DNA of 64,000 nucleotides. Source: Calocera cornea HHB12733. Taxonomy: Eukaryota; Basidiomycota; Dacrymycetes; Dacrymycetales; Dacrymycetaceae. The notes under the pieces were generated by a model, which saw only the letters and a list, made by a program, of their open reading frames with translations, made no database searches and had not been told where the DNA came from. The stretch lies in the NCBI GenBank assembly GCA_001632435.1, contig KV424043.1, positions 27,209 through 91,208 on the forward strand, given 5' to 3'. The translations under genes were made by a program, and so were the position numbers. The stretch's first letter is position 1. Each line of letters begins with the position of its first letter. Shown in pieces: positions 2,621 through 42,410 of this stretch.

Positions 2621-2971
2621 CCTGCTTGCTTGCACTGCACTGCACTTCCCGGGCGTGCGGGCCTGCCGGGCTCCGCACATTCGTTGGCTGGTGTTGGGAG
2701 GCGGGCGGCTTCAGCGGCGACTGGGAGCCGAGGGGGGGGATGTACTGGTACATGCATGATCTCGGTTGGCACATCGATACCCTGTTCAAACAGCACGCAT
2801 ATGCATACTGTAATAAGTTCTGTTTGGGGCTCGCAAGTTCCTTATTCTCATTGAAGAACATCTCTCTGCTACTACTGCTCACTAAGGAGATACGGAGGGG
2901 ATAAACAGGCTGCGGCTGCTGCGCGGACGAAGTCACCGTGCGCCGCCTACTGTGGGAGCTGGAGCTGGAGC

Positions 2972-16887: not shown

Positions 16888-18170
16888 ATGGCTACCCAAT
16901 CCAGGTGCGTAGACCATATCAGCACGCCATGAACTTGCTGATAACGTGACGCTGTGCATACCCCAGGTCCAATAGAAACGTGAACCTGATTTCCGAGACC
17001 AAGGAGAGTCTGTCTGAGGGAGAGGCGAAGAGATCCGTAGAATACTGGACGTATGATCTGGCATCATCCCCGTGATCGGCAGGCTCACAGTGTGATAGCT
17101 TCTCCAACAGCGTCGCGGCTGATATCGACTTCGCCTGCGGTGATTCCCATGCCTTCGAGATCATCACGCGTGTCGCACTGCCTGACCTCTTCGCCTTCAA
17201 AGGAACCTCAACCTCCATGGCCGGAGCGATCTCTGACGGGCTCCACACGACTGGAACCTTCTTCTGGAACAAGACGGCCGAGCTCGTCAATGCCAATAAC
17301 CTCGTTTACCACGCCAAGAACAGCGCCGATTCGCTGACCGTCACGTTCTACGAGGACCTGTCCCCGACGGGAGATGCTTCGGGAGAGGCACAGGAAAGGG
17401 AAGCTCTTGCTCACTTCACGAGAGAACACATCGCAGGTCTCGAACTAGATGTCAGGGGTGCTTGTCTGTTCACGTAAGTTACCAACTGTGGCATACAGAG
17501 CGGCTGGATACTGATGAAACGTCCACATATGCACAGTGGGTCAATCGGAAACTTGTAAGGATTTCGTCTCCTGCCCTCTTCACGTCGCATCACCCATTGG
17601 TCTAACACCTGTACTAGCCTGACGGCTAGCGCAAGCGTCGAGATCAAGGTCGCACACCCGGAGATTCAGCTCCGCATGCAGACTGACTACAAGGACTATT
17701 CCTGCGTCTGCCTGGGTGCGAGCCCAGCTAAGGTATCAGGCGTTCCCGAAACAGCGAACGTCCCGGCCCAACAGATCGAGCTGGTCATGAAGACTGATTA
17801 CAAGGACTATTCCTGCCTCTGCCTGAGCGACAACACCACCATCAGCGTGCCTGAAAAGCCGATCACCACAGCAGGACACACGTTCTACTACGGTGGCGGC
17901 TGGCAGAAGGGAGATGCTGTCAAGGACTACGCGTTCACTTTTACGATCCGGAAGGAAGGGCCAGAGAAGACGGTGTGTGTGACGTTCCTTCGGGAGAAGA
18001 AGGTTGAAAATGGGAAGGGGCCCGAGGCGTTTGCGTACTTGCCGCTGAAGGGGATCAACTATGAGGGGCAGTTTGATGTCGAGGGCGCTTGCGAGTGGCA
18101 TACCCAGGTTGGCCCATTTGCGACTCTCGCAGCAAGACGTGCACTCATGCCCTTTTCTTTGCAGCGCTGA
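16888..18170 (+). CDS. cluster paralogue P1, units B-C
   Basis: Unknown family; no function is assigned. Six exons (16888-16904, 16967-17050, 17111-17473, 17537-17554, 17618-18107, 18165-18170) give 325 residues. A short first exon MATQSR leads to a charged linker, then a B unit (TTGTFFWNKTAELVN, LTVTFYEDLSPTG, LDVRGACLFT) and a C unit (DYKDYSCLCL, FTFTIRKEGPEKTV, AYLPLKGINYEG, DVEGACEWHTQ). The opening strand of C is present twice in tandem (MQTDYKDYSCVCL and MKTDYKDYSCLCL, about 37 residues apart), a local duplication or an unrecognised intron. The last exon adds only Arg and the stop. No signal peptide or membrane helix is seen, so a cytosolic protein is inferred. The A unit present in P2, P5 and P7 is missing. 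Confidence 0.75.
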
Positions 18171-19929
18171 GCTTGCCATCAGGGCGTAAGGAAGCCCGCA
18201 CGTCATTCATGCTGGATTAAATAGCACCAAACCCGACATGCATCAGGAAGAAAGTATGATTGTATGCAGTTCTGTTTTCTCGTCAGGGATGTGGTGTGTT
18301 CTTCATGCTCACGCGCCGCGACGGAGCAGTGCACATCCTCAGTCAGTCGCAGACCAGGGTTTGTCCGGAGCGGTGCGCCTGATGTGTCAGCCCCCCCTTC
18401 AAATCAAGCCAAATCAAGGCGACTGGAGAATGTACGCTGGTGACGCGAGCGTTCGAGAAATGAGGCGCGGTGAGACGAGTGGGAGGTGCGGCGAGCGTGA
18501 AGCCCCCGTGCGCCGATCGTCCCGTCACTCCCGTGTGTTCCCATGGACCGAGAAGGGATCCGAGATGTTACCCGGCAGGCAGGTTGCACATCAATCGCTT
18601 GTGCAATTGTACTGAATAATAGCTCACCGATGCGCCCCTCTAGTATTACTCTCTGGAACCGCTCAGACCGGTGCTGACAAAGATAGCAACAATAAGCAAG
18701 CACACTGTAACAAAATCGGTACTTTGCGTGCGCTTCATCAATGCGATTACCTAACGGATTTCTCGTCCATTTTGTGTTCCTCCTCTCCATAACGGGCGTC
18801 TCGTCCTGCTGTATTGAATGAGCCGACGTCGTACGATGAACAGCATCCTGGAGCCTAGTACCGTTCCCCCCTCGCGATGCTCCTTTCACCTTTCCTCTAT
18901 GATCTCATACCGGCCAGCGCATCTGCCACGCTAGCCCTCCCGATATCTACTGGGCCCGGGCTCCAGTCCGGTGTTTGTGAAGCACCGTCTCTTCCCACAG
19001 AATCTTGTACTCAAGTGCTACTAACCAGTCTGCTCCGAGCATGATTGGCCCACAGTGAGCCTGGGTCGCGGAATTTGGTGAATAGATCGAGCTGGTCCTC
19101 CTGCTTTCCAGCCCAGAAGATATGTGTAGCGTCCCCGCACACAAATGGTTCCAGAACCTCCTATCAAGTCTTTTGGTGTTCCAGGGTAGTGGGCGGTTGT
19201 GATGTCCTCTGTTGACGCCGTCTCAGTAAAGGAAGCTCATGACTATGCAGCCAGCAGATGATAACGCATGAACTCCCCCTCCTTCATACCTGTCCATGAA
19301 GCAGTATCTCTCAGGCTCCTGAGCTGCTCTTGGAGCATCGTTATTTTGGAAGGCCTGTAGTTCCTACTCAGTCACTTCCTAGATAGGAATAATGACTTGA
19401 GGAGACCGTTGGATGCGGAGCGCCACCAGTCCAGACTCCAGTCCGACAACAGCTCAGCCTTTGGGACTACCGTCAGACCCCGCGGCTTTCCGCAGCTTGA
19501 AATCCGTCGTTTACCTTCTTCCGGTCTAGAAGTCATTGCTAGCGTCCCCGCAACCCTTGTCCATCTCCTTTCACCGGTACTATCTTGTGGAAGGCGCTGG
19601 GCCCGGAAATGTGACTTGCTAAGGGATAACCCTCTGCGCAAATGGGGACCGTGGCCCCTAGATGGTACGCGGGCCCGACTGTCACGAAACACATTTAAAT
19701 GAGTGAAAGGCAGCAGGCTGTCTACCTCAGTACCACGACTTCACCTTGAATCAGTGACCCCATTTATCTTCACACAGTACTGAGCACGCGGAACGTGAGT
19801 AGACTGGTCTCTCAAAGGTCTCAATGGATTGTTCTGATCAAAGGGCAGACCATGAACATTACCACTGGGTTTGTTTCCTGTCACAGAGATTGAGACAGTC
19901 CTATTTCAGCTGATGCTCGTGCTTCAGAG
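18171..19929. other. long intergenic stretch with duplicated 3' flank
   Basis: No gene is supported. About 18330-18545 resembles 21700-21910 downstream of P2 (see repeats). The remainder has scattered short frames only, none with splice partners or family resemblance. Confidence 0.4.
18330..18545 (+). repeat. duplicated flank, copy 1 (downstream of P1)
   Basis: Shares the blocks 'ccagggtttgtccggagcgg', 'caaatcaaggcga' and 'gaggcgcggtgagacgagtg' in the same order with 21700-21910, at similar spacing. It shows that the segment copied between P1 and P2 extended well beyond the coding region. Confidence 0.7.
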
Positions 19930-21532
19930 CTGCTACGAAGGGATCGGAGATTGACGCCTCTCAGTGAGTCAGTTGCAGTGAGAGTTCCTTGGCATTCCCT
20001 TCTCACCGTAACCAATCACAGCCTGTCCACCCAGATCCCAGTCGAATTCCTTGTACTGAGCCGTACCGAGCCCTCGGACCATATTGCTCTGTCCATGTCG
20101 ACCCGAGTTGACCATGAAGGCAAAGTCATTTCCGTTGGTGGACACGGACTCGGTCGTCTGGCCATGGAGATCCTGGCCAAAGATGGATGGTTCTCGTTCG
20201 ACCGCATCGACAATCTGAATGGAGGAAAGACGACGAGCTGTACATTCTACGCGGAAATCATCGGCGGGACGCTTCTTATCTCCTTCTACGAGTATAAGGA
20301 GGTTCAAGGTGCCGAGCCCAGGCAGCTCATCGGCCAGTACAAGAAAGAGAAGGTCGGAGGTCGTCTAGCTGCCCGCGGCACATGCACACTCCAGTAAGTC
20401 TTCAGAAATAAATCTCATGTGGACAGCTCAACTAATGGGAACTACCTGAAAGGGTCGAGAAGGTATCGTTGGGGGCTCTGGATGACGTGGAGGACGAGGC
20501 GACTGATACGGAAGTGGACGCTGCAGACGTGAAGCCGACGTCATTGCTGTATGCGACATCCCCCTCCTAGAGGAGTGTCGAACTAACAAGATTCACACAG
20601 CTACGCCCAAAGTACCGAAGTCGTGTGGATGGCCGACTATGACCCTAGAGCCCTCTACATGAGCTCTCTTCTGTCCCTCCCCGATCCCGCCGTGATCACG
20701 TCCAGCGCAATCACCGTGACCGGAAGCCTTAGATATGGGGCTAGCGACCAGGCGACGTTCTGGTGGAATTCGGATGAGGAACTCCTCAATACCCCGAAGA
20801 TCGCGTTCCATGCTAAAGACAGGAAGAAAGGGTTCAGGATTCAGTTCTACGAGGATTTGTCAGAGGGCGGTGAGATAAAGCATGGCAGAGAGCTAGCGCG
20901 TTGCGAAGGGCCCCACTTCGGGCTCAACCTGAAGCTCGACCTGATAGGAACTTATCAGTTCGAGTGAGTCTTCCGATTTCAGAATGTCATTCAACTTCTG
21001 ATGAAGGGCTCTACTATGTTCAGGTTCACTTACAGATATCCGTACGCATCTCTATTTTAGACGCTTGCGCGATTTGCGGCAATACGTACTGATAAGAAGC
21101 AGCGAGAAGGCCAACGCGAGTATCACGATGCAGATGCACAATACCGCGGTCGAATTGCACATGCAAACCGACTACAAACGCTACTCCTGCGTCTGCCGGG
21201 CGGAGAACGTGATTCCGATCGTCTCCGGCCCGCGCATCTCGGCGACCGGGTTCAAGTACGAGTACGAGGACTGGGAGGATGTGGAAGACCCTGAGGGCTT
21301 GGTCTTCACTTGCACGATCAAAACGGAGAAACCAGGGGAGGGGCCCCTTGTCACGTTCTGGTGCAATGCCGCGATCTCGAAGAACCGTCCGTGGGTCATC
21401 GGGCGGCTGCCGCTCGTCGGCTTGAAGTGCGGGCAGCTGGACGCCAAAGGCAGTTGCGAGTGGTTCACCAAGGTCAGCCTGAGCACCTCGCTTGGAGCAA
21501 GGTACTAATCAAGCCTGTTCGGCTCGCAGTGA
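19930..21532 (+). CDS. cluster paralogue P2, units A-B-C, start unresolved
   Basis: Unknown family. Firm exons: 20022-20393 (A unit: DGWFSFDRIDNLNGG, LLISFYEYKEV, LIGQYKKEKV, ARGTCTLQ), 20453-20548 (acidic linker), 20601-20963 (B unit: ATFWWNSDEELLN, RIQFYEDLSEGG, LIGTYQFE), about 21061-21472 (C unit: DYKRYSCVC, EYEDWEDV, GRLPLVGLKCG, AKGSCEWFTK). The stop TGA at 21530-21532 follows the last acceptor directly. An upstream exon around 19930-19962 (ATKGSEIDAS) is likely, but it lacks an ATG: the sister genes read atggctac where this one reads gctgctac. The real start may therefore lie in a further exon or be lost. In the B unit the closing G-x-C-x-F reads G-T-Y-Q-F, so the cysteine is missing. 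Confidence 0.7.
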
Positions 21533-23201
21533 TAACCGCCAAGCGGGGTCCGTCGTTCCTACACAATCAAGTAGTGACAAACGACATTTGTATCGTGAAT
21601 AAAAAAAGGCATATGTGCGGGCTTCATTGTCCTCAGGGATGGAGGTCGAGCCTTCTGGCGTTCTCGCTGCGGCGAAGTAGCGCAGACGCTTAGCCGACGG
21701 CGCACCAGGGTTCGTCCGGAGCGGCACAACTGGTGCCGCTCAGTCGGCTTGATGTCTCGGGGTCGTCTCATCCTGCAATCACCCAAATCAAGGTGAGTGG
21801 TGTTAGCGCACGCCGGTCACGCGAGTGGCCGAGGAACGAGGCGCGGTGAGACGAGTGGGAGGTTCGGCGGAGAGGAATGTGGGCTGACGCCACCCGACTG
21901 TCCCCTATCCTGTGACCCACGTTCCTGTTCCGCGGAGCCAGCTGCTGGCGACGCGGCGCCCCGGAGACGCTTCTCTCTTTCCCCAGACTTCTGTCGCCGC
22001 CGCGCTTCGGTGATTGTTGTCGCGTTCTGCAGCTTCTGTTTCTGGAACGACGACGGGCGCAGTCGGGCACCTTCTCTCCTGTGGCTGTCAAGTGCGAAAG
22101 GGCCATGTCTCATCTCCGGTTCTCGTGGCTGACATAAGCTGCGGAGTCAAGCGGTGATTGGGCGAGGGAAGATAGGGTTCAGGCGCCGATTGTCGCGTCG
22201 TGCGACAGGGTCCGGACAGACACTGGACGGACAGCACGTTCATCTCGACTCGGAGTGCCACCTCGCCCCGCCGCCCCTCCTCGCCCGTGCTGGTTCGACC
22301 TTCCTCACCGAGCCCGTCCGCCAGGGGGCGGGGGCGCTGGCTCCACACCCGCTGGCAGCCGGAGGGCTGGAAGAAGTGCGGGCGCTGGCGTCTTCTCGCC
22401 GTCGTGAAAGATAGGGAATGGTGCTCGGCTCATGCATGCGCCCAATCATCACGTTTCTGGCCCACCACCGCGCACGGGAAGTCGCAGGAAGATACGCATG
22501 CATGGACACACCTTGCTCCACGCTCACCCGACGCATGCACGGGCATCTGTTTGTCTCCCGCTCGACGGTCGCTGATCGAGCATCAGTGGTCCCCTCGTCA
22601 CTCCTCCTGACTCACAAAGGGTGTCGCTGGCCCGCCAACCCCCCCCCCCCACTCGAAATTAGGATTTAGCGCTGGCATGCTCGTCCGAGATCGGTACAGT
22701 CCAACCAGTTGGTTTCCACGCCCCCTACCTGCGCGTCTGCCGCCCGCCGCCTCGCAGTAGCCCATTCAACACTCAGCGCAGCTCGCAGTACGGCACCCTT
22801 TTTCCGTTCCTGAATTGTACATCTACACCGACTCCGCAGCCCGCCCATCCCAAAGTACTACAACAGCCCCACCAGCTCATCATAGCCAGCACAGTTCACC
22901 CCTGACAAGAGCACGCTCTCCACCGCACAATCGCAGAACCGCAGACCGCCGCGGCCCAACCAAGCCAGCCCAGCCTCGCATATACGTACTTGCAAGCCAC
23001 CCCCACACACGTCTTCTGGTCCTGTGGCCTATTTCTGGTCGAACGAGCCTCAGCGACACCCATCATCCGCGCAAAGCCTTTTGTTCCCCTGTCTATCGGT
23101 CTGTGGCGCACCCCTCGCAGCCGACTCTGACCTTGTCGCGGTCGTCGCACGCCGCCTCGCAGCTCACCACCTCGCACCGCCATCGCCTCCCCGCACGAAC
23201 G
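21533..23201. other. intergenic, with duplicated 3' flank and CT-rich leader
   Basis: No gene is supported in 21.5-22.8 kb; 21700-21910 is the second copy of the repeat seen after P1. From about 22.8 kb the plus strand is pyrimidine- and C-rich, which fits the promoter and 5' leader of the small membrane-protein gene starting at 23202. Confidence 0.4.
21700..21910 (+). repeat. duplicated flank, copy 2 (downstream of P2)
   Basis: Second copy of the segment described at 18330-18545. The shared blocks occur in the same order and orientation relative to the paralogue upstream. Confidence 0.7.
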
Positions 23202-23932: not shown

Positions 23933-24720
23933 CTAGATGACCGCCCAGCACATTGGGTCCTCGCCCACCCTCAGCGGAGCCTCCCCCGCGCAGCAGTCTT
24001 CCGGCACAACCTCGCTGTCGCAACAATTCAGTTCTCCGCACGTGACTCGCCACCGACTCACATGAGCGACGGGGTGAGTCGGTGCGTACCTCCAGGTGCA
24101 TTCGCCCTCGCCGTACGCCTCACCCATGAACGGCGCCCAGGCCAACCCGCGCAGCGTCTTCCCAACGAAGAAGGAGAGGACGATGTTGCCCTTGCGCGTT
24201 CCGAGCACCCATCGGCATTTGGTCGGCTTGGGAGCTTTGGGCTCTTTGGGCTCGGGCTCTTTGGGCTCCTTGGGCTTCTTGCCCCCAGGCCACACTTCAA
24301 CCTCCTCCGGGTCTTCCGGATCTTCTGGCTCTCCTGGAACATCCTCGTTGGGCGACAAAAGCTCGCTCCAATTCCGATACGCCATCACCCCCGCTTCCCA
24401 GCTCAACCCCACATCCGCCCCTCGACCAGTCCCCTCGCATACATGCACACTCGGCTTGGAGCGTGTGCGCAGGGAGAGCGAGAGATGGCCTAGGGAGGTG
24501 TTGGAGATCGCGAGATGGGAGAGCAGGCAGATGTGGGGGAACTTGTTCTTTGGTGGCTCAGGCTCGGGGGAGGGAGGATCGTCGGGCTCAAGCTCGAGGG
24601 AGTGAGGCGCGGGGGGTTCATCAGTGCGATGGTCGGGGCGGGGGTTGGCGGGCGGGACAGGCGCAGGAAGGGAGGACGACGGTATGTGGGTGACGAGGTG
24701 CAGCGTCCTCTCTGGCGGTC
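23933..24720 (-). CDS. cluster paralogue P3, diverged single A-like unit with Pro/Glu/Lys insert
   Basis: Unknown family, assigned to the cluster by pattern. The unit reads LGHLSLSLRT, CEGTGRG, MAYRNWSELL, NIVLSFFVGK and GECTWR. These match the opening strand, C-E-G-x-G-x-G turn, F-x-Y-x-x-W-x-x-L core, L-x-x-x-F-[YF] strand and G-x-C-x-W close of the other members. A roughly 45-residue insert between core and strand is built of repeated Glu-Pro and Lys-Glu-Pro steps. A last intron after GECTW in the same phase as P8 (24085 to about 24011) leads to a terminal exon ending at 23933. The start is unresolved. The frame stays open to 25147 without stops, but an acceptor-like 'gattggcag' near 24720 suggests the exon begins there. 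GC content is much higher than in the neighbouring paralogues. Confidence 0.5.
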
Positions 24721-25358: not shown

Positions 25359-26000
25359 TTACGTCTCAGACTTCTGCACAAACGTCAGCAGATAAGTAGG
25401 GGTCGATTGCATCAACAAATATCTTACCTTCTCGTACCACTTGCATTCGCCCTGGATATCAAGCTCATACATGTAGTGAATGCCTAATGTCATCACCAGC
25501 CAACCGACCTCCTTCGGGACGTTGCTCAAATGTGCCTTGCTAGTGGCGTAGAATTTGACCAGCAACGTGTCCTTCGGCGCTTTCTCGATGCTGAACGTGT
25601 AGTCGCTCAACGCGCGCTGCGGCACGGTCAAGTCGGACCAGTCGTTGCAGTAGAACGTGAGCCCGCGGTTCGTCATTATCTCTGTGTTGTGCGCGTCTAT
25701 CGTGCTTTTGCCGATGCCTGTGCAGGATAGCTTGTCGTGGTCGGTATCCAGCGTCAAGTCCACTTTGCTGGATCCAACATGAAGTGTCACCTCGGCGCTG
25801 AGTGCCTTTACGGTCAGTGGATCATTGTCATTCAACGTATGCTCGTCAATCGTTCCGTAGTGCAAATCCATGCTGGACCAGACGGTGGTCAGGCAAGCAA
25901 GACGCGCGAGGGAACAAGAACCCGAGATAGCTTACTGGCGCTCGAGAGCCTCGGAGGCCTTCTCCTTGGCTGACTTCCCGTCTAGCGAGGGACTAGACAT
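25359..26000 (-). CDS. cluster paralogue P4, single C unit
   Basis: Unknown family. Three exons (26000-25936, 25872-25428, 25373-25359) give 174 residues. A 22-residue charged first exon (MSSPSLDGKSAKEKASEALE) leads to a linker and one C unit: HDKLSCTG, GLTFYCNDWSDL, YTFSIEKAPKDTLLVKFY, VGWLVMTLGIHYMYELD, QGECKWYEK. The final 15-base exon encodes KSET and the stop. It retains the first Cys and the closing G-x-C-x-W Cys but only one of the two Cys in the usual YSCxC. No A or B unit is present. No signal peptide is seen. Confidence 0.75.
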
Positions 26001-26800: not shown

Positions 26801-28462
26801 TCACTGAGATGCGTCAGATGAGATCACCATTTTGGGAGAGATTGACGAAATATGGACACACGTTCTTAGACCATTTGGTGGTACCGTCGACGGTCAGGTC
26901 CCCACTATAGCGGAAGATGCCCAGAGGCAGGTATCCGATTTCGAACGGATCGGTATTGGGATTCGTCTTGAAGTTGAGGAGGAACGTGACGAAGATCGTG
27001 TTATCCGGCCCGACCTTCCGAATTGTGAAGCCATACGTGTACCTGTCTGGGTCATAGTCGAGGTCGGCCCACTCTCCACAGTAGAACGTGGCACCCGAAA
27101 TCGAGATAGATTTGGCGTTACGGCTGCTTTTCGTGTTGTTGCCTTGGCTTGAGCTGGAATAGCCTTCATATTGCGTCCGCATAGCCAGGCTGACGGACTT
27201 GCCCACCATCAGCTTCAGGTTAGCGTCCGCCTTGGTCATTTCGCTAAGTGTGATCAGGTGGTAAGCATATTGGATCACGTTAGACAGGACAGACCTACAA
27301 CAGGTCTTGGGGATAGTACGCTCTGTGATCACGGTATGAGCCTCGATAGACGTTGAGAAGAGAGGTTCATCGCTTACGTGAATTTAATGGAGCCATCGAG
27401 ATTCAATGTGAGATGTGGCACAGCGGAAGTCGTGAATTGACCCAGATCGCGCCCCTTTTTCATCGGACCACCGTCAGACAGATCCTCATAGAGTGTGATA
27501 GTGAGCGCATTCTTTCCGTTTTCTGCATGGAAGCCAATGTGTTTCGTGTTGACTAGGTCGTCCACATTATTGAAGCTGAAGATCCCTCCGTCGACGATGT
27601 TGAAGGAAAGTGTACCCTTGGCAGATGTGGATTCGCACTCCATCTCAATGAGATCGGGGATGTACAGATCACTTTGCATGTAAAATCCTGGGCCGTCCTT
27701 GAGGCTGGTGACAATGTTGGCATCGACGCTCCTGGAGAATCTGCACATACATCAGCGATCTACTCCGATCACAGTAGAAGGGCCCCACGTACTTCTGGAT
27801 GAGAGAAAGATCTAATGGTTCAAGGGCCGTCAAGATCTCAGCGAGGTCGGCCATCGTCTCGTTGCTTGACTCGGCTCTCGGAAAGGAAACAAATCAGAAA
27901 ACGAAGCATACGTATTATGGACAGCAAGTGCATACCTGACCTGGCAAGAGCCACGGATAGACACACGACAGACCACGCCGTCTTTCTTATATTGGCCAAA
28001 AAGCTCCCTGTGGTCGTGGCCGTGTCCATGCTCGACGTAATAGAACGAGATCACTAGAGTGGCACCTTTCGTCTCGGCCTCGAAGGTGTACGCCTTGCCT
28101 TCATCTCCATCCCAGTCGTAGCTACTCTCATAGGAGAATTCGCCGCCTTTCTTCACCGTGCTGAAAGATCGACCAGAAGTGGTACCCACTCCATCAAACT
28201 GCAGTATCCTCCCTTGGACAGGGAGCGTCTTCATGGACAGCGAGACTTCAGAAGCCGATCTTCCACGTGTGATCATTAGGTACGAGACTTGAACTCGGTT
28301 CGAGAGACTGTCAAGCCGCTCAACAACTGGATCTGGAAACGTTCGGACAACATACTTGGACGAATCGACATCCTGGGCCATCTTGACGAGTCTATATCAG
28401 AAGGCTCAGACTGAAAACAATGACAGGTATATCATAGTTACGTACGGAGCTGGTGTAGCCAT
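26801..28462 (-). CDS. cluster paralogue P5, units A-B-C
   Basis: Unknown family; one of the best-preserved three-unit members. The first exon MATPAP (28462-28446) splices into LVKMAQDVDSSKYVV. The A unit follows: GEFSYESSYDWDG, LVISFYYVEHGHGH, LFGQYKKDG, IRGSCQ. After a linker (SSNETMADLAEIL) comes the B unit: GIFSFNNVDDLVN, KHIGFHAENG, LTITLYEDLSDGG, LGQFTTS, NLDGSIKFT. Then the C unit: TFYCGEWADL, YGFTIRKVGPDNTIFVTFL, IGYLPLGIFRYSG, VDGTTKWSKN. The stop TGA lies immediately after the last acceptor. The C unit has lost the YSCxC and closing Cys together (YSSSS and GTTKW), and B has GSIKF in place of G-x-C-x-F. A His/Asp-rich turn follows the A strand. No targeting signal is seen. Confidence 0.78.
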
Positions 28463-29420: not shown

Positions 29421-30453
29421 TCACTGAGACAAACCCAGTTGATTAGTAACTGTCCGAAACAGTCCGTTTCATGCTGACCGGCTTGGACCACTTGCAACTT
29501 CCATCGACAGTGAGAGTACCCTCGTAATGCAGCCCCTTCAGCGGCAACCATCCAATCTCAAACTGATAGCCGCTCGAGTCTGCCTTGAGAGTAGACAAGA
29601 AGGTGGCAAAAATCGTCTTCTCCCGTCCCACTCTCCTGAGCGTGAAGGTGTAGTCATAGTCATCGGAGGAGCCCAGCTGACTCCAGTCACCGCAGTAGAA
29701 GGTATCACCCGTGGTGGAAATAGATTTCGCAGTTTGGCTTTCTGCCTCGTTTTCACCTCGGCATACGCATGAACAGCCTTCATGGTTGGTTCTCATATAG
29801 AGCTGGACGGAGGTCCCGATCGCGATGTTGATATCGGCGATCACGGTGTCAGAAAGACTAAATGTCATTACAAAGGTCAGACTCATGACTACACGAGAGA
29901 TGGCACACGTACAAGACCAGCTCTGGGTACGTCGGACTGTTTGGATTGGAATGTTCATTAGGAGTTAGCACGAAACATGACGCGGAGACGTACGTGAATG
30001 AACAGAGGCCATCGAGATCGAGTCGGGTATAATCACGGTGTGCCCCAAGGTACTGACCGAGAGTGCGCCCACGTTGAGGTGTCTCCTCACCTTGGGACTT
30101 GTCTTCATAGAATGTAACCGTCAGAGCATCCGATCCATTCTCCGCATGACAAGTGATATGCTTGATATTGAGAAGGTCGCTAATATCTTCAAACCCGAAC
30201 GTTCCTTCATGCAAGAATGCCTCAGATACGGTACCTGACGCGGCGCTGGTGTCAGCGGAAAAAGATATGAGATCCGGAAGGGTGATATCTGTTGACATAT
30301 GGAACCGTAAGGGCGATGGAGCAGCGAAAATGGTGGCTGCGACAGTGTTGGGAAACCTGCTGCAGGGTCAGAGTTTGGGTTCTCCCAGTGAGTACGGGGG
30401 GAGCGCGACTCACTCGTGACCGCGGACGGCACCTGTTTCCCCTCCATAACCAT
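29421..30453 (-). CDS. cluster paralogue P6, units B-C
   Basis: Unknown family. After a short uncertain first exon (MVMEGKQVPSAVT, from 30453), a B unit reads NTVAATIFA, GTFGFEDISDLLN, KHITCHAENG, LTVTFYEDKSQGE, LGQYLGAH and LDGLCSFT. A C unit reads NHEGCSCVCRGEN, DTFYCGDWSQL, YTFTLRRVGREKTIFATFL, IGWLPLKGLHYEG, VDGSCKWSKP. The stop TGA at 29423-29421 follows the last acceptor directly. Both closing G-x-C motifs and the CSCVC pair are intact. The first-exon join needs a gtcgcg donor, so the start is tentative; an upstream exon could instead supply the N-terminus as in P1 and P5. Confidence 0.72.
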
Positions 30454-31409
30454 CGACGCCCTTTGCAGGGACGGTACGTTTGGAGCGAATGTATCTGGTC
30501 TTGACTCTTTCCAACAAGCTGAACAGAGGAGCGGTCATAAACGAGAGGGCTCAGCGGAGACATTGAAAGTGCGCACGCCGTCCCATCAACAGTGCTTCCG
30601 GTCCTGGGGAGGGATCTGGGTTAGAGTTGTTCGTTGGAAGCTGCTTGAACATACGGGGAATCATTCGCGTTGATCTTAGCGAAATGTTAGTCTTGGTACC
30701 AGTCGAATTCACAGCAATGAAGCTCACCAGTGGCATGGTCTGCCGAGTATAAGCTTGGGATAGAGCGGGTTGTGGAAAAAAACAGGCGGGTAATGGGTTG
30801 CACATCGCTGCATCCACGCGCTATATAAACAGTGAGGGAGGCGTGGGATTCACATGTGCAAGACATGCAGCGCGGCGAAGTGGCACGTTGTCCACGGAGG
30901 AGAAGATGCCAACGGATTGCGGGCACGCTATCCCCTGTATGCGATACCATGGAGAGAAATACAAAAGGGGTACTCGAGGCACACTCGCAACCGGAAGAAG
31001 GTGCAGAGCGCCGGATCTGTCCGAGCAGAAGTGCTAGGTCTGGGCTACTCGACTAGTCGGAGGTTGATAGTCACCGGTGTTCGAGCATGGGCACTGGAAT
31101 GGGCATCAAAGGAACCTCAGATAGCACCAGAAAGGATGGCTGTCCCTTGCGGGCAGAGGTCACCCGGCTTCGCAGAGTCGTGCGCTGCACCGGGGGACGC
31201 GACGGAACTGAAACGAAGTGCGGAGCCTTTTCGATGTGCCTCCATCCTCCCGGGATTTCATATGATGATGATGATACATATAACTTATTCGAGGTCGACG
31301 AACACCTTTCCTCTTCAGAATCACGAAACACCGCAAGCTCTCTATGGACACAATTTGACTCCTTGATCTGGCGCCAATCCCGGTACGCTACGGCCAATCT
31401 GCCGTTGTG
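30454..31409. other. intergenic between P6 and P7
   Basis: No gene supported. A plus-strand TATATAAA occurs near 30823, but no plus-strand gene follows it convincingly. The overlapping frames at 30.8-31.4 kb lack resemblance to anything nearby. Confidence 0.4.
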
Positions 31410-33204
31410 TTACTTCTGACAGTGATCATCGTCAATACGTTTGGACAAGGTGGAAAAGGGACTGTTCTAACCTTGTTCGACCACACACAACTTCCCTCGA
31501 CCTTCCAATTCTCCCGCAAGTCCTTGATGCCCATCCAGCCAATGGTATAAGTGGCTTCTTCGTTCGTCTCCTGAAATCGCACCAGATGCATTGCCTTCGT
31601 CGTTCTTTCGATCTTAAAGGAATAGTCATTTCCCCCCGAGACTGTGAAGTTGTACCAGTCGAGACAGAACAGCGTTAATCCCTTTTCGATAACGTGGATC
31701 GGTCCCGTGCATGCTGGTCCCTCCCTTTGACCGTCACCCTTGCAGTGATAGCCATCACGGTCCGTGAGGAGGGAGAAGTGGACCGTGGAGCTGCCTTTGT
31801 CCATGGTGATGGTACAGTCGAGCGCCGTAACTCTGTCACTGTCAGGGAATTAGCATAAATTTCAGGGTAGGAATACCCTGAACCCACTAGTCCGCTGGAT
31901 CTATCATGTATGGACTTTGCGAAGTGTGAGTGCCGTATCCATCCGCCAGGACTTCGCACTCACGTGAATTGACACTCGCCCCGGATATCAAGTTTGTTAT
32001 TCAGGAGATCGCCATTGTAGTCCCCGACAAACTGGGCCAAAACTTGTCCGAGCCTGGCTTTCCAATCGATCTTGCCAGACTTGAAGAGCAGTTCATAGAA
32101 CGTGACCGTAATGACGCCTTTCACGAGTGTAGCTTCGAAACATGAGTCCTTGATGTCGAAGAGTTCGTTGACGTTATTGTAGCTGAATGTACCGCTATGG
32201 CCAGGAATAGCGTGTTTCAGTGTACCTTCGATGAGTGTCACATCCATGCTGATGTCGATGAGGTCGTAGAGCGGAGATTCGCTAGTCATGGTGAACAGGT
32301 ACGGGCCTGCTGAGCACTTCTTTGCCTGCACGAACTGGACGCCAGACAGCAGATGTTCGGAGAAGCTGCTCCTCGTTTAGATAGCATGAAATGGGTGTAT
32401 AACACGGCACATACTTGGGTACATCGGTCTGCTCTACCGAAATAAGCACTGGGGTACTCTCTGCTCCGAAATCCTCGGGCCTGGATCATACGCGTAAGGT
32501 CTCTGCCTCGTAGGACTTCATGGAGAGCGATACGTACGATGAAGTCGGAGCAACATGCCTGAAAGGAACAACAGATTCCAATGAGACATATAGTTGGCTT
32601 TGAATAAGTCCCACTTACGTGAATGTGCATACACCATGAGCGAAGAGAAGCTGTCCCGCATGATCCTTGTTGTATTGACCAACGAGTTGCTTCTCTGATT
32701 CCTCTGACTTCGTGCGGTAGAAGTTGACGGTGAGAGCGCCTGCCCACGAGACTTCGGCATCGAAGCTGCATTCAACACCAACTAAATCGTCTTCCGTAGC
32801 GTACGAAAACCATCCGTCTCCTTCGAGGCAGTCCCTGGTGAAAAATCGGCCAGTTCCATGCCCTTCACAAAAGAGAAGAGAGCCTTGCTCCTCCGTCGTC
32901 TCCATTATGAAGGTAATCCCAGTCGCCTTCGAGCTGCGCTGGATCCAGATGTACGCCGCTTCGACCTTCTTGACCAAGCTACGGAACCGAGACAGTCAAT
33001 CAGTGCAAGAATATGCGGTGTAATGTCCACGTACTGAGACGCATCAACTTGAGTTCCCTTCCTAGGCGGTCATAGCTTCAGCAAGACAGCTTATACATCG
33101 GGCTCATGGCCCATATCGGACGTACTTGGGGATCACAGCGCTGGTCTTGAACAATGATTAGATGCAGTGACGTGTCACGAGAGAGGGTCTCTTACCAGTG
33201 ACAT
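31410..33204 (-). CDS. cluster paralogue P7, units A-B-C
   Basis: Unknown family. The first exons MSL and TSAVIP (from 33204) lead to an A unit: AYIWIQRSSKA, CEGHGTGRFF, DGWFSYATEDDLVG, LTVNFYRTKSEE, LVGQYNKD, AHGVCTFT. A small linker exon and STPVLISVEQTDVP follow. The B unit reads GTFSYNNVNELFD, ITVTFYELLFKSG, LGQVLAQF, IRGECQFT. The C unit reads DGYHCKGDG, LTLFCLDWYNF, YSFKIERTTKAMHLVRF, IGWMGIKDL, EGSCVWSNK. The terminal exon encodes Lys and the stop (31410). All three closing G-x-C-x-[FW] motifs are intact, unlike P5. Small-exon boundaries between 33125 and 32980 and between A and B are approximate. No signal peptide is seen. Confidence 0.75.
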
Positions 33205-34015: not shown

Positions 34016-35933
34016 TCAGTGCTTCAGCAGGGAATGTCCGGTCATCTCCTTGGGGATGTCGAATCCCTGTAAGCTATATCAGCGGCAAGTCACATCGCAC
34101 GGGCAATCAACGCACCATGAGATCCAGCACAGTCGGCGCGACATCGCACAGCGCGCCCTCCTCGCCGTTCTTCTCAGGGGTCACCTCAAGCTGGCCCTTA
34201 TCACCCGTAAGGATGAAGGGCACGGGGTTGGTCGTATGTGCAGTATGCGGCTCGCCAGTCTCTGGGTTGATCATCTGCTCTGCATTGCCGTGATCGGAAG
34301 TAACGATGAGGATGTAGCCAGCCTCCTCGCACGCGTCATACACCGTCTTCACCGCCTTGTCCGTTGCGGTGATCGCCTTGACAGCCGCATCGTACTTGCC
34401 GGTGTGGCCAACCATGTCCGGAGGTGCGAAGTTGCACATGACGAAATCATACTTCTCCGACTTGACGGTTTCGGCGACCTTGTCGGCCACAAGCTGTACC
34501 GACATCTCTGGCTTCAGGTCGTAGGTCGCAACTTTCGGCGAAGGGATCATCTCGCGATCCTCGCCCGAGAACTGCTTCTCCACACCACCATTGAAGAAGA
34601 ACGTGACATGCGCGTACTTCTCAGTTTCTATTGAACCGTGAGTATATGCGCAGGCTCAGAAGGAATAAGCGTGCTGACCAGCAATATGACACTGCTTTGC
34701 GCCCTTCTTCGCCAGCCATTCAGCAAGCACGTCAGTCATTCCCTGGGGAGGGAAAGCCACCGGGAATGACCAATCGGGGTTGTAACGCGACATCGTGGTC
34801 ACATTCTGCAGCACCGGGTCAGGCACGGCTACATGTGAAGGATTACGTTGAACGCACAAGGCCAGTTGGGACCTCAACCTCCATCGGCTTCTCAGGGAAC
34901 CCGAAGATGCTGGTGAGCTCACGCATACGGTCGGAGCGGTAATTGAAGAAGAATAGCGTGTCGTTGTCTGCAGTTTCCAGTCAGCGCTTGGCACTGGTGC
35001 AGCTGCACAATGCAGCATACCCTTGATACGCGTCTCCGGACCACCGGAGATGATAGGCTTCATGAACTCGTCCGTCTCGTCTTTGTCATACCTCTCCTGG
35101 AACGTCTTTAAGAGGTCGTCCGTCTTCTCGCCCTCCCCCTTGACCAAGGCGTCAACTGCGATCTTGACACGCTCCCAGCGCTTATCGCGATCCATCGCGT
35201 AGTAGCGACCAACGACAGTGACAACCTTTCCTACACCCTCCTTCTGGACAAACTCTAGGAGGTGCTTAAGGTGCTTGATGCCAGAGTGCGGGTCGGTGTC
35301 GCGACCATCGCCGATGAAGTGAACGTAAACCTCGGGAATGCCTTGCTCCTTAGCAGTCTCGAGGAGGGCGAACAAGTGGTCGATGTGAGAGTGAACACCA
35401 CCATCAGACACCTTCACGTATATTAGCATCTCATATGTATGAAATATGGAGTGGCGCACCAGACCAATGAGATGAAGACGTCCGTTGGTCTTCTTGGCAT
35501 GCTGAAAGCTCTCAACGATGTACCTCTCCTTGTGGAACTCGCGCTTCTTGATGGCAACATCGATGCGAACAATATCCTGCCAAACTATGCGACCAGCGCC
35601 AATGTTCAAGTGACTATACGCGGCTGTCAGGACCATCCATCACAGAATCCGCGTAACACGGAGTAACGCACCCGACCTCAGAGTTACCCATCAGCCCGTC
35701 GTTCAGCCCGACAGCAAGACCATGGGCCTCCAGCAGGCGGTAGTTATGCTTCTCGGCAATTTGGTCCATCGTGGTGGTGACGCCAGCTTCGACGGCATTG
35801 CCTTTCAGCCCAGGCTGCCGTGCGACTCCCCAGCCATCATGCACACTTTATGCACATACAATCAGCGTTCTGAGTAGCAGCCCGTGAGGTATTGCACACA
35901 CATGAGACAAACTTTATGCTTGACTTGGACCAT
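34016..35933 (-). CDS. 2,3-bisphosphoglycerate-independent phosphoglycerate mutase
   Basis: Interconverts 3- and 2-phosphoglycerate in glycolysis, using two metal ions and a phosphoserine intermediate. Eight exons (35933-35902, 35845-35672, 35613-35460, 35411-35021, 34967-34858, 34805-34679, 34627-34116, 34066-34016) join to 516 residues, the usual length. Landmarks: LIVHDGWG at the start, the catalytic Ser in LMGNSEVGHLNIGAGR, SDGGVHSHIDH, GDGRDTDP, VGRYYAMDRDKRWERV, FFFNYRSDRMREL, NFAPPDMVGHTGKYDA, TSDHGNAEQM, and EMTGHSLLKH at the end. This housekeeping gene sits inside the paralogue cluster between P7 and P8. The first exon was chosen because its donor restores the conserved DGWG strand. 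Confidence 0.93.
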
Positions 35934-37064
35934 GTCGTAACAGATTGAACTATGAGTGTGGTCTATGCCAACGCAGGATGCAGGAGTTGCGGTAAAGAGA
36001 TGAGGGAAATTGATGGGGTCCGACTATTCGCCGTCTCGTAACTGGCCGACTGGCCCAGCCCGCCGCGCCTCAATGACGCGCAGAGTTATTCCCGGCCAAG
36101 CACGTGCACCACGTGGAGTGTCAGGGTCTCGGCGAACTTCGGCGTGTCCTCCACCGCACCCCTGCGCTCCCACGTTCCTGCCTCCTTCAAAGCGTGTCTC
36201 CACCTTATAATGCCCTTCATCCCGGTCTCCTGCAGAAAGCTCGTTGCATACCAAAACGATTCGTCGGTAAATCTACGAAAGACATCCAAGGCTCATTACA
36301 ACAGGTGCAAAACACGACGCCCTGCACCAGCTCCCGCGGTTGACTGGATACAGTACACTGCATTACAACTCCATCAACGGATTATGATGAGCTTGTTTCA
36401 ATGCGCTTTATGAACGACATTCTGTCAAAACGCACGAGAATTAAGTTGTGTATGTTCCTTGACCCTGTTCAGTCGCAGCAGCGTAGGCGGATCTCTCAAT
36501 GGTTCGACGAAATACCGGCGCCGTGTATGTTCATCCAACTTGGTGAGATGCATTCAAGCTTTCCTGGATGACGTTCCGGCAAGTCGGATTCCGTCTCCCT
36601 TATCATTCGGGTCTGATGACGTAGCAGGTTCTCCGCCAATTGCACCGCATGCTCATGATCAAGGCTATCATGTGAAGCACCTCGAGGTAGCTCATCAGAT
36701 GTCCCAGGCTCTGGCTTCTGCCGCAGCACATCGGAGCTCGGGGAGATGGCTCTCCGGCGGGAAGCCGTTTCTATGTTCCCTCAGACTGGTCGACTTCATG
36801 ATCTCTAGAGATCACACTAGGGTCACCTCGACAGATAAACACAGCGGCAACATGCTCCATCAGGAAACCCTGTCCGGGCCCTGATTTCGCCCTCGGCTTG
36901 CCCTTCTGGCCTTCTAGGCCGCACCACGTAGACCGGAGTTCTGCACCTGTGCTTCATCTGTATACCTCCATTGTATAAGAACTGGTATGGATTACCCTCC
37001 TCACCGCCATCTCGACACCAAATTTCCCTCTCGTTTCTAGGTACTACCTTCAACCATCTACGAG
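35934..37064. other. intergenic; left copy of a duplicated segment begins about 36.6 kb
   Basis: No gene supported. From about 36660 the sequence shares blocks with 38150-38240 (see repeat entries). A TATAAG at 36974-36979 may serve P8. Confidence 0.4.
36660..36800 (+). repeat. duplicated upstream segment, copy 1 (before P8)
   Basis: Contains 'gctcatcagatgtcccag', 'tctgccgcagcacat' and a 'ttctccgg..gga' block in the order and spacing found at 38150-38260 upstream of the P8 pseudogene. With the coding similarity, this marks a tandem duplication of about 1.5 kb. Confidence 0.7.
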
Positions 37065-37644
37065 ATGTCTACCGTGAGTGCTCCTTGACTCAACGCACCA
37101 ATATCGGACACTAAGCCATGATATAGGAAGCGGCACCTATTGCGTATGTCACTGTAGCAGTCAGATCCCCTCACGTTAGGAGCTCATAAGCCCCAGATTC
37201 AAGCACCAGGCCGATGCTGATCACGTCGAGTGCTGGTTCGAAGATTCAACCCTCAAGATGTTTCTTCTCCTCACCGATGCGTCCTCCCGCTACTCGGACG
37301 GCATTGGCAAGAAGTTCACGAAGACGGAGTTCATTGTGTTGGACGGCGTGTTCTACTATAATGACTGGGCCGACCTGGTCGGCGTCCATGGCCTCACGTT
37401 TGGGGTTTTCACGCAAGGAGAAGATTTGATCGTAAACTTCCATCGCCTCACCACTTCCAACGCCGAGGAATTGATCGGTCAGTACAAGGGAAAGAAGCCC
37501 GATGTGAAAGACGCGATCGACATCGCAGGCACATGCACTTGGAGGTAAGCACTGGTGTCGTTCATTTCTCTGCTCGTATCTCACTGATGCTCCAGTGCGT
37601 GGGACGGGGTCACCGAGCTTAAGCAGAAGGGGAAGTCCCGCTAG
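37065..37644 (+). CDS. cluster paralogue P8, single A-like unit
   Basis: Unknown family. Four exons (37065-37073, 37127-37143, 37191-37544, 37596-37644) give 142 residues. The unit reads VECWFEDSTLKMFLLL, TEFIVLDGVFYYNDWADLVG, LIVNFHRLTT, LIGQYKGKK, IAGTCTW and ends with a terminal exon AWDGVTELKQKGKSR. The first two exons are 9 and 17 bases. The D-G-x-F-x-Y-x-D-W-x-D-L core and the closing G-T-C-T-W are intact. A decayed tandem copy lies 1.5 kb downstream. No targeting signal is seen. Confidence 0.78.
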
Positions 37645-38592
37645 GTGTAATACTCCCTTCTGCAACACTGTGAAGATCATCAATGTGGTAAATTAAAGCG
37701 AGTTGCTATTGTCCCGGAGTACCAATGCTGGCATACTGCTGTATCAGGCCGATGTCCGTCCTTACTTCCGGCTGTCTCATGAGAACACTGTCGTCGGGGA
37801 GGGATTGGAGTGGTATCAGCATTCCAGCTGCCGTAGAGTACTCAGAGGAGCCGTGTCAAAGGTTAAGGAGCTGCAATATTTGTCTAGTCTCTCGGTGAGA
37901 ACTAGGTGCACATATCCACCTGCCGTCTTTCGTTCTGCGTGAAGTACCGTATGTAAGTGTGGTACCTAGAAGACCGGTGAGTGCCCAGATGGCTCTAGGG
38001 TGATGGACCAGCAGAGAGCTCTGCTGTGTCCTGCTGGACCATCTGCCTCTGCCGCTTTCTTGAATAGTGTCTCTTTCCCTTTCCCTTTGATTCCCCTCTG
38101 AGTACATGGCACGGTCTACAACGCACACTGCTTTCCAGTGCTGACATGTGAAGAGTACACTGCGAGAGCTCATCAGATGTCCCAGCTTCTGTCCTCTGCC
38201 GCAGCACATCCCGGGAGATTGGGCCTACGGTTCTCCGGCAGGGAGATTTTATCAGTCTTACTCAAAGCGGTTGACTACATCAATCCTCATCTACACAAAG
38301 ACATCCCGCTGATGGTCACTTTGGCACACACTGGGCTGCGGCTGCATATCTGCCTTACAGAACACTGTCCGGATCCTGGAATCGCCGTCGATTGCCCTAA
38401 CCCCTACACGGATTGAGTACGGGACACTGAGCATAGTTGAATGACTGGCACGCAATTGCTGTACACCGCAATACCGTTCATGACTTCTATCATTCCATGG
38501 CGATCCTTTCCAGGATAAGTAGCACCCAGTGTGGGAGCTTACTTTCCACTCTACGTACGCAACTGCAGGATACGACTTCAGCCCTCTGCAAG
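37645..38592. other. spacer between P8 and its pseudogene
   Basis: No gene supported. Carries the right copy of the duplicated upstream segment at 38150-38260. Confidence 0.4.
38150..38260 (+). repeat. duplicated upstream segment, copy 2 (before P8 pseudogene)
   Basis: Partner of 36660-36800; shares 'gctcatcagatgtcccag' and 'tctgccgcagcacatc' blocks in the same order. Confidence 0.7.
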
Positions 38593-39017
38593 ATGTCGGC
38601 ACAGGTATGTCCTCTCTTCGGCGGTCGTTATGGTGTCACTCACTGTGCACCATAGGAGTTCAAGCCCCACAAGGACAGAGTTCTATAAACTCGTTCAGAG
38701 ACATGAGAAGCTGATGTGGAGGTAAATAGGTTCAAGCACCGAGTCGATGCCGATCATGCTGAATGCTGGTTCGAGGAAACCACGCTCAAGATGTAGCTAC
38801 TCCTCACCCAGGCGGCCAGGCCATCCCCTGGTATTCAGACGGAATCGGGACGAACTTCACGAAAACGGAATTTATCGTGCTAGATGGCGTGTTCCACTAC
38901 AAAGAGTGGTTGAATCTAGTCGGAGTTCACAGTGTGAGATTTGTGGTGAACACGGATGCTTTGATAGGCGATTGCTCTGGGCAAACGTGCAAGGATCTTA
39001 TCACTGCGGCTCGGTAG
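38593..39017 (+). pseudogene. pseudogene of paralogue P8
   Basis: A short ATG exon (MSAQ, followed by a gtatgt donor) and the main exon resemble P8 along their length. RFKHRVDADHAECWFEE and TTLKM match RFKHQADADHVECWFED and STLKM, but the next codon is TAG where P8 has Phe. A change of frame follows: WYSDGIGTNFTKTEFIVLDG and VFHYKEWLNLVGVH continue P8 in another register. After FVVNTDA the similarity ends and the L-I-x-Q-Y and G-T-C-T-W parts are missing. Stop codon, frameshift and 3' loss together make this a clear pseudogene. Confidence 0.85.
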
Positions 39018-39175
39018 ACTCCAACGCAAATTTCATTCTTTCATCGTATTCCAATTTTATTGCTTGGTATCGCAACTCAGCCTTACAATAGTGACCATCT
39101 CCTTCTGCCATAAGTCAGCGCTTCACATCAACGAGGATAAGGCGTTTGACCTACTCGGTTAATTCTTGTTGTCAC

Positions 39176-39806
39176 CTATTTCTTGGCAGGAAACTTTGGC
39201 CTAGCGCTGAGACCGGTCGCGGGGGCAATTCCATATGGCCTGTCATGAGAAGGATGTGTAGTAGCGGCAAATGAACAGAGGCGAATGGCTACTCACTTGA
39301 ACTTGCAAGTGCCTGTGACATTGACTTTCTTCGGCATAAAGTCGCCGGTGTAGTTGTCGATCCTGTACTGGCCCAGGCAAATGCCTTGACCCAGACCGCC
39401 ATCCTGGCCAACGAAGAAGTTGCAGGTAAACTTGTTGCCCGTGCGTGTCGCCTGGAACTTCACGGGGTGTTTAGGCTTGGGATGATCCAGGCCGCTGAAA
39501 TCGTCGTAGTAGAACCTGCCCTCATCCATGACAAGGAATGACGAAGCAAGATCGCCGGTGCCGTCATAGCCTTCGCAATCGTGCCACTCGCTGTCGTCTG
39601 GATACATAAGAATGGTGATGCCGTCCTGCAGAACTTCCATCTGGAAGCCTTCGACGGTAACGCTGTTCTTGAACCTGTCTCGTCGATCAGTCATTCACAT
39701 CCTGGATATCAGAGGCAAACGCGTACTGGGGATCCTATAAGAAGAACACTGTTAGCTGAATTTACCTTGTGCCAGTGGCAGAACTCACTGAGCTGGCGGA
39801 GGTCAT
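39176..39806 (-). CDS. cluster paralogue P9, single A-like unit
   Basis: Unknown family. Four exons (39806-39789, 39734-39727, 39674-39297, 39200-39176) give 142 residues. The unit reads MEVLQDGITILMYPDD, DCEGYDGTGDLAS, DEGRFYYDDFSGLD, NKFTCNFFVGQDGG, LGQYRIDNYTGDF, VTGTCKFK. The frame could stop at TGA right after FK, but a canonical gtgagt donor spans that TGA. Splicing to 39200 gives the tail PKFPAKK, which is paralleled by PKFPGGK in P10, so the spliced form is preferred. The second exon is 8 bases. No targeting signal is seen. It is close in sequence to P10 and lies in a duplicated segment with it. Confidence 0.8.
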
Positions 39807-39900
39807 GATGTTCCTGTCTTGAGTCGGGTCGTACGGTATGTCGTTCCTGTGGTTCAGGGGTCTTGTTGGATGCGCCTTGAGCGAGGGAACCTACTACCAC

Positions 39901-39907
39901 TATATAT
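39901..39907 (-). promoter_or_regulatory. TATA box of paralogue P9
   Basis: An ATATATA run on the minus strand about 95 bases upstream of the P9 start. P10 has the equivalent box at a matching distance. Confidence 0.5.
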
Positions 39908-41768
39908 CCTTCTGGGACGATTGTCGAGAAACGGCACTGTCGGCTGCCAGAGGAGCACCTGCATAGGAGCACCTGCATAGGAGCTCATGGATCAACGGTG
40001 ATCAATTCGGCCGCAGACTCAGCGTTTGCTTCTAGCGTGAGGTTCATGCAGGACAAGAAGACAGTGATGCCGGTCCTTGAGAAAGAGAAGACCAAATGTG
40101 TTTCCTTAAGTGGCTCCACAACCGCAAGAGGGTACAGAATTCGACGTCTTTATTGGGTTGTCATACGTCAGGAGACGTGAATCTCACCTAAATGTAGTAT
40201 AGAAGCCAAAGCGTCGGAACCGGTGGTCCCAGGGGCCGAGCGCCGGTGGTTTGCGGGGAGACTTGTGATTTGTATTGCCATTGTCATTGTTCAGTAATAT
40301 CGTAGCAGTGAGGTGCAATCAGAGCAACTGTGCTTCCGTCATCTGATACACCGCGCCTGCGGATTCAGCCAGAAACACATGTTATCATACAATGCTTGCC
40401 GGCCGAGTCTGCCGAAGACCAGGGGAATGTACAATCAAGACGAGGGTTAGAAATGTAGTAAATAACATCGATAGAACGCTGGCGAGCCAGCAAGAGGACG
40501 ACAAGCTTGGGAGAACAGTCATATTGCGCCTAGTACCAAGGACAGCGGTGGATTGCATGAGACCAGGCTGGATGCAGTTCCGAATGTCAGAAGGCCGGAG
40601 GACGCGAAACGCCGATGACGGATCATGGCCCGGGCCCTTTCATGCACGGACCGGTCATTCCTCTCGAGTCCATCCAACGTTGCTCATGTCCAATCCGGGT
40701 CACTGAGCTCCTGGAAACACCAGATCGGGACACATTGATAAGGGGGGTGCATCCATTTGAATTTGCCTACAGCACCGATTGAATTGCTGAACGCTCCAAG
40801 CAACGCTTTGGGACCGATCTGCAGAGGAGGCTTCGAATACGGCGCTGGCATAGCTTTGAAAGATCTCGCTCTGAGACCGGCGGAGCAAAGCTCTTATATG
40901 TACAACACTGGCACCGCGGCGTTGTAGGATGGACCGGCCTTGAGGGAGCAGTCGAATGATGCCGAGCCGCCGGCTCAAGACGGCAGCGTCATGAAGTAAC
41001 ATGCCGGGCTGTCCACGGCTCCCTTCCTCGAATCATTGCAAGACAAATGGATAGATGAAGTTGCAAGTGCTCTGTCCTGATCTGCAGGTATATATACATA
41101 CCATCGGCACCGATGTCGTACTCTCCCACTGGTGTCGTGGCTAGTAACGTCTGCGCGCGCCGCCTCACAGAGGAATCCACCCGCATCTCCCCGCTCCTGT
41201 CACGCAGCAGCCCGACATCTACAGTACTCATTGTACGGCTTTTCAGCTTGATATCACTTGCAGACCCTGTCAGCCCTTATGTAGGATACAGTATAGTGAT
41301 CTCTTGGCAAGCTGATTAAGCCGTAGTCTCGCAAGGGCGACAGTGTTCTGAAAGGGAGGACCAAGCCCAAATGGCAGGGAGTCTCGATGGGAAAACACGG
41401 CCATCTACCTTCTTCCCGCTTCCATGGGTTCCTACAAGGACAGAAAGTACCCGGAAAGGGACCAAGAGTGAGATCAGTAAGGCGGACCAACAGAGGTGGG
41501 CATCTTGCTAAGAGGTCGTAGTACACCCGTACTGTTGCACAAGCTCAGTCTGAGGGTGACTCTGGACAGCTTTACACACAAGCTTCATTGATTGATGGTA
41601 TCGCCTCGCCTCCGCCTCCGCTGCAGAACTACACCATGCTGCACCAGACGAAACAGGGCTCCCTCTGTGAACATAAACACATCTGGACAGCTGTCTCAGC
41701 AAGAGTTGGATTGGCTACGGCGAGATTCTGACCTACAGCTGTAATCCACCTGCTAGTAAGTCGTTCAC
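39908..41768. other. intergenic between P9 and P10
   Basis: The first 0.8 kb belongs to the duplicated segment. Around 41080-41240 is one copy of a short repeat shared with 44420-44560 (see findings). Otherwise nothing is identified. Confidence 0.4.
41080..41240 (-). repeat. dispersed repeat with exon-like frame, copy 1
   Basis: On the minus strand an ATG frame (MSTVDVGLLRDRSGE) runs into TLLATTPVGEYDIGADG and then a gtatat donor-like sequence. The DNA resembles 44420-44560, which reads ALLGPTPAELRDIGVD before a gtaagt donor-like sequence. It may be the first exon of a duplicated unknown gene or a mobile-element remnant. Confidence 0.4.
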
Positions 41769-42410
41769 CTATTTCCCTCCCGGAAACTTCGGCCTAGCGC
41801 TCTCCTCAGTAACACCATGTCCAGAGCTTACATTTGGCCTACAAATCAGAGAATCTTTAATAACAAGCACGAGCACATGTAGAAGGCGACTCACTTGAAC
41901 TTGCACTTCCCGGTGACAATAACCTCCTTGGGCATGAAGTCGCCCGTGTAGTTGTCAATCCTATACTGGGCCAAAATGCGGTTCACGCTGTTGTCCGGAC
42001 CGCTCCAGAAGGTGCAGGTGAACTTGTTTCCCTCGCGAAGCGCTCGGTACTTTACACCGTCCTTGTGTGCAGGATGATCCAGGCTGTTGAAGTCGTCGTA
42101 GTAGAACCTTCCCTCGTCCATGACGAGGAACGAGCTGGCAAGCTTGCCGGTGCCGTCATCGCCTTCGCAATCATGCCACTTGCTGTCGTCAGGATACATA
42201 AGAATGGTAATGCCACTCTTCAGGGCTTCCATCTGGAAGCCTTCGACGGAGACGCTGTTCTTGAATCTGTTCCACCCATTAGTTATGTAGCGGACTATGG
42301 CAGAGAGAAACGCGTACTGAGCCTCCTACAGTATAGATGCGATTAACAGAACCGTTATATATATATCATTGAAAGTGTAGAGTGCTAACCATGTCGGCCG
42401 GCGAAGTCAT
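41769..42410 (-). CDS. cluster paralogue P10, single A-like unit
   Basis: Unknown family. Four exons (42410-42390, 42325-42318, 42266-41895, 41793-41769) give 141 residues. The unit reads MEALKSGITILMYPDD, DCEGDDGTGKLAS, DEGRFYYDDFNSLDH, NKFTCTFWSGPDNS, AQYRIDNYTGDF, VTGKCKFK and ends PKFPGGK after the conserved last intron. It is the closest relative of P9, with long identical stretches (SSFLVMDEGRFYYDDF), and is the right border of the cluster. The second exon is again 8 bases. If the last intron is retained, translation ends immediately after FK. Confidence 0.8.

Follow-up and report, generated by a model that had tools for sequence, protein, structure and literature searches.

A cluster of related genes between positions 16888 and 42410 of the window, as the whole 64,000-nucleotide stretch analysed here is called (contig KV424043.1, positions 27,209 to 91,208, forward strand), very probably encodes chains of one to three barrels with the predicted fold of the virulence-associated (Vap) proteins of the horse pathogen Rhodococcus equi. 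The window is part of the 32.1-Mb genome of Calocera cornea HHB12733, a wood-inhabiting jelly fungus (Dacrymycetes), and the cluster represents an old gene family that Calocera keeps at a single locus. The explanation that best accounts for the data as a whole, with a somewhat better than even chance of being correct, is that this old family would supply cytosolic chains of Vap-fold barrels, for which defence is the likeliest role.

The predicted fold and its relation to Vap proteins

Four classes of repeated unit, denoted A to D, were distinguished in the cluster. A single unit of class D gave a confident predicted model with strong structure matches to Vap entries only, namely VapB (PDB 4cv7/7b1z), VapD (4csb) and VapG (5aeo), all from R. 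equi; the match extends over nearly the whole domain and stands about 9 Z units above the next row. The model of a class A unit, of low confidence, puts the same entries first, and in both classes the predicted unit is a compact beta-barrel with one helix, matching the solved Vap structures. All four classes may share the fold, two of them having been modelled and one of these poorly, and the structure alignments alone imply that the Calocera strands would follow the Vap order b1-b2-b3-b8-b5-b6-b7-b4, a topology described as novel or unusual (PMC4118825, PMC4089522). A first-pass annotation of the window had proposed an unrecognised, possibly lectin-like family; the first part holds for Pfam and NCBIfam, where the units have no match, but the fold is recognisable as R. 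equi Vap-like, and it is this fold rather than that of a lectin that is predicted. A family-library search with 18 units (the 17 of the window and P0005) matched no lectin family.

The resemblance to R. equi Vap proteins includes the occurrence of several clustered paralogues (PMC4118825) and a last strand that ends in Gly and an aromatic residue in 15 of the 17 Calocera units. In contrast, there is no sequence similarity detectable by hidden Markov models, each R. equi protein consists of one barrel and carries a secretion signal, whereas the Calocera proteins have one to three barrels and no apparent signal peptide, and the Calocera genes are fungal, with introns, one unit per exon and no Gly-rich last strand. 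The bacterial proteins of the 'VapA/VapB family' outside R. equi (L158, L159, L160 and Pantoea L161) are presumed to have the same fold because they match PF05526 (R_equi_Vir), and bacterial homologues of this kind are reported to lack signal peptides (PMC4118825). Unlike the Calocera proteins, they have one barrel each and a Gly-rich end followed by Trp, and their alignment to the Calocera units by hhalign is not significant.

Genes, units and age of the cluster

An iterated profile, started from six hand-picked units and run on six-frame open reading frames (ORFs), so that its independent E-values (i-E) are trained on themselves, identified in the cluster 17 full units of about 110 residues each (i-E <= 8e-23), one half-unit in M1 (1.2e-4) and a pseudogene (1.9e-8). 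The cluster reported by the first-pass annotation, with ten genes and a pseudogene, is upheld by this profile, and the M1 and M10 start codons mark its end points; the count becomes nine firm genes, one tentative gene (M11) and one pseudogene. The spliced models likewise confirm that the genes lie on both strands and vary in unit number, from one to three.

The architecture C-A-B is found in M2 (19852..21532, +; first exon inferred), M4 (26801..28462, -) and M6 (31410..33204, -; deposited as P0001), and A-B in M1 (16888..18170, +), in which a duplicated half-unit precedes B, and M5 (29421..30736, -; deposited as P0002). The duplication in M1 comprises the first half of the B unit (17649-17759, within the region 17649-17860, +: TDYKDYSCVCLG ... 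TDYKDYSCLCL). In M5, the exon before the A unit (30414-30518, -) resembles, by eye, a shrunken C unit, a possible vestige from which it follows that A-B genes could arise from C-A-B genes through loss. M3 (25359..26000, -; identical to the deposited P0006) consists of one B unit, and M8 (37065..37644, +), M9 (39176..39806, -) and M10 (41769..42410, -) of one D unit each, the deposited P0007 and P0004 being shorter models of M9 and M10, respectively. The pseudogene (38593..38996, +) adjoins M8, is related to it and contains in-frame stops. The tentative M11 (24071..24538, -) has provisional gene ends and one divergent unit with a Pro/Glu/Lys-rich insert; the profile finds it as two pieces at i-E 4 and 450, with a chance antisense row scoring better at 0.94, and it is counted as a member by its motif order and a final TWR followed by a GTACGC splice donor, both judged by eye. 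A search with M11 revealed no further copy in the C. cornea genome.

Spliced models with GT-AG introns were written for the nine firm genes, and in all of them each full unit is contained in a single exon. Introns before or between units are in phase 2, except for a phase-0 intron before the A unit of M1, and a further phase-0 intron lies just ahead of the stop in the six genes ending in a B unit; this regularity is partly a choice, since splice sites were picked by eye to keep the frame. Five of the ten genes have a deposited protein (P0001, P0002, P0004, P0006 and P0007). At the C-terminus, P0006 and P0002 match the models of M3 and M5, and P0001 departs from that of M6, with which it otherwise agrees; P0002 differs from the M5 model in starting further upstream and in its extra N-terminal and small exons. 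Crude hydropathy revealed no apparent signal peptide in the nine models or in seven deposited proteins, as the first-pass annotation had stated, the best nine-residue means being 1.93 and 1.47, respectively, against 2.83 for a secreted-looking control; this control comes from a small gene (from about 44986, +) that adjoins the right end of the cluster and whose product has a hydrophobic N-terminus. The cluster proteins probably remain cytosolic.

The units are related to each other, class B least clearly. The motifs first proposed for them are present but looser than claimed: an exact L-x-V-x-F-Y occurs in 4 of the 17 units, and the closing motif has its Gly in 17, its Cys in 14, its F/W in 15 and all three in 12. 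Because the main profile was trained on its own matches, each class was also left out in turn, and the omitted units were regained at E <= 1.2e-5 for D (3/3), C (3/3), A (4/5) and B (1/6); these profiles matched no ORF outside the family at E <= 10, nor did any of them match M11. In hhalign comparisons between classes, five pairs reached probabilities between 84.5 and 97.6%, and the A-B pair 17.5%. An arbitrarily rooted tree of 20 units groups the members of B (99/98), of C (94/93) and, with less certainty, of A (60/99), and it separates M8 from the remaining D units.

The family is confined to one locus and, as far as protein databases reveal, to one genus. Searches of the C. cornea genome with the family units, P0003 and M11 gave matches at E <= 0.001 in the cluster only, with two rows outside it at E 0.07 and 0.14, and protein-database searches found relatives in C. 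cornea and Calocera viscosa only, classes A, B and D occurring in both species. For each of the two C. viscosa proteins, the contig listed has 528,653 bases, so that they probably share a scaffold. The units of the two-unit C. viscosa protein P0003 nest within the C. cornea A and B groups, suggesting that several A-B copies are older than the species split; in the tree they stand beside M2 with moderate support, whereas BLAST identity favours M5 and M4. M9 and M10 group without P0005 (90/78) and may be younger than the other copies. Within-class identity is 23-48% in classes A to C, and the synonymous divergence (dS) of 31 within-class pairs has a minimum of 0.89, two pairs being saturated. 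With P0003 nested inside the groups, these values leave the amplification put forward by the first-pass annotation unsupported as a present-day process. The ratio of non-synonymous to synonymous divergence (dN/dS) is 0.18 for M9/M10, the closest pair, and 0.11 to 0.66 for the other pairs with a value, except one at 1.03.

Possible roles and the origin of the fold

A small closed barrel with no recognised catalytic motif and no signal peptide, repeated one to three times, points to a binding module of variable valency: each barrel may be a compact binding module, and two or three linked barrels would form a multivalent binder. The role proposed as most likely, although itself doubtful, is that of an intracellular anti-grazer defence protein, which would be stored inside the fungal cells, taken up by a consumer on grazing and then act on the surface, perhaps the membrane, of its digestive cells. 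This proposal joins by loose analogy the membrane effects of VapA with the stored defence lectins of fungi. VapA is reported to bind membranes and make them permeable, most effectively with phosphatidic acid (PMC10100859), and its core to disturb endolysosomes (PMC5387311); for fungal anti-predator effectors, intracellular storage with uptake on grazing has been hypothesised (PMC6126850). The mushroom lectins described there are, like the Calocera proteins, intracellular and possibly multivalent, a functional analogy only, and have a different fold by structure searches. An extended version, in which the Vap fold would be an old intracellular anti-grazer module disabling the endolysosomal membranes of grazing animals or amoebae and the R. 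equi proteins acting on macrophage endolysosomes would be a weapon of the same kind, secreted and carried by a pathogen, is quite improbable.

Several observations weigh against a defensive chain of Vap-fold barrels. The VapA core reportedly has the endolysosome effect, which VapD and VapG did not show (PMC5387311), and VapB disrupts membranes only weakly (PMC10100859), so that the solved structures matched are the inactive or weak ones. Old copies are not the usual leftover of an arms race, and the pair with a dN/dS of 1.03, the B units of M2 and M3 (24% identity), together with the other values of up to 0.66, means that constraint is well shown for M9/M10 only. The second structural model has a mean predicted local distance difference test score (pLDDT) of 42, with no clear match for its B unit. 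At the sequence level, neither PF05526 nor the NCBIfam Vap models match any of the 18 units, whereas four bacterial Vap-like proteins used as a control match PF05526 at E 5e-21 to 4e-41; PF05526 has no match in the C. cornea genome either, in a search that had no positive control of its own but did match in other samples. The hhalign probability between the Calocera units and a bacterial Vap-like profile, a shallow one of 3-4 sequences, is 0.12 to 0.54%, at which the local alignments place the helix region in the expected register, and column shuffles scored as high in 26 of 300 cases in local and 291 of 300 in global mode. In addition, the Calocera units lack the Gly-rich last strand to which a lipid-binding 'bald' patch has been ascribed in VapD (PMC4118825, section 3.6); their own last strand has one conserved Gly, then usually Cys and F/W, with a final Trp in 7 of 17.

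A carrier or storage function within the fungus itself is no less probable than the anti-grazer role. It is quite possible that the family is of a housekeeping or developmental kind, with barrels binding an endogenous lipid or metabolite, or with proteins abundant in the fruiting body as structural or stored material, and without any part in conflict. The age of the paralogues, the low dN/dS of M9/M10, the presence of classes A, B and D in both Calocera species and the absence of an apparent signal peptide fit this alternative, but the strong divergence within classes A to C, the varied unit number, the decayed copy and the finding of relatives in one genus only would all be unusual for it.

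Since no sequence-level match to Vap proteins exists, the Calocera proteins can be said to be built like a Vap, not to be a Vap. Descent of the fold from a common source with the bacterial proteins is nevertheless favoured, because the topology is rare. Convergence, that is, a Vap-like barrel arising in a Calocera-born family with no kinship to bacterial Vap proteins, is in keeping with the non-significant sequence signal, the missing Gly-rich strand and the lack of relatives outside Calocera in protein databases; it is unlikely given a topology described as novel or unusual, a match over nearly the whole domain that is so far ahead of the next row, and the same Vap entries ranking first for a second unit class. 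A self/non-self (incompatibility) locus, as the first-pass annotation proposed from clustered, divergent and partly decayed paralogues, is very improbable, as the copies are old and a scan of the 18 units and of 19 further ORFs, which covered part of the exons of the window, detected no HET or NACHT/STAND-type domain.

Neighbouring genes and the wider occurrence of Vap-like proteins

Inside the cluster, between M6 and M8, lies a gene of the metalloenzyme superfamily (PF01676, E 1.4e-58; 34107-34652, -, extending probably to about 35900), presumably a cofactor-independent phosphoglycerate mutase. Other ORFs of the window encode FYVE and RhoGEF domains, an FAD-binding oxidoreductase, a CPL1-like protein and a cytochrome b561, together with a weak WD40 match below its cut-off. 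A GC-rich stretch at 2600-4345 (-) contains apparent tandem copies of a secreted-looking protein with the repeated 'GNCDGAVKDASGNFIKGACP', and its ORF at 3941-4345 (-) has no Pfam match.

PF05526 is rare, with matches in none of the 20 genomes reached by loci, in 2 of 369 in a class sample and in 2 of 390 in an order sample, the two samples sharing one genome (G276, G385, G765). VapA/VapB-like matches occur in 42 plasmid records, of which 36 are from Prescottella (R. equi), three from Escherichia and one each from Edwardsiella, Pantoea and Vibrio; none turned up among 50,697 phage records. In the Pantoea plasmid (L162:13980-14489), the VapA/VapB-family gene lies between annotated baseplate and hypothetical/tail genes, in opposite orientation, in phage-like surroundings with holin and lysis genes.

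The Vap fold has been described as novel and within a small bacterial family, and its function is still argued about. A 2019 review (PMC6852188) places vap homologues in several bacterial phyla 'and even fungi'; one of the two papers that it cites in support (PMC4118825) names only bacteria in its section 3.9, and the words 'fungus' and 'fungal' are absent from it. Among the matches listed for the Vap and Calocera literature, neither titles nor abstract openings describe a eukaryote with Vap-fold proteins in tandem or in a cluster. If the fold is confirmed, the cluster would represent a eukaryotic, multi-barrel branch of the Vap fold accessible to laboratory expression and tests, and the question of what this fold does beyond virulence would become approachable; the cluster is a hint that the Vap fold has been in use more widely and for longer.
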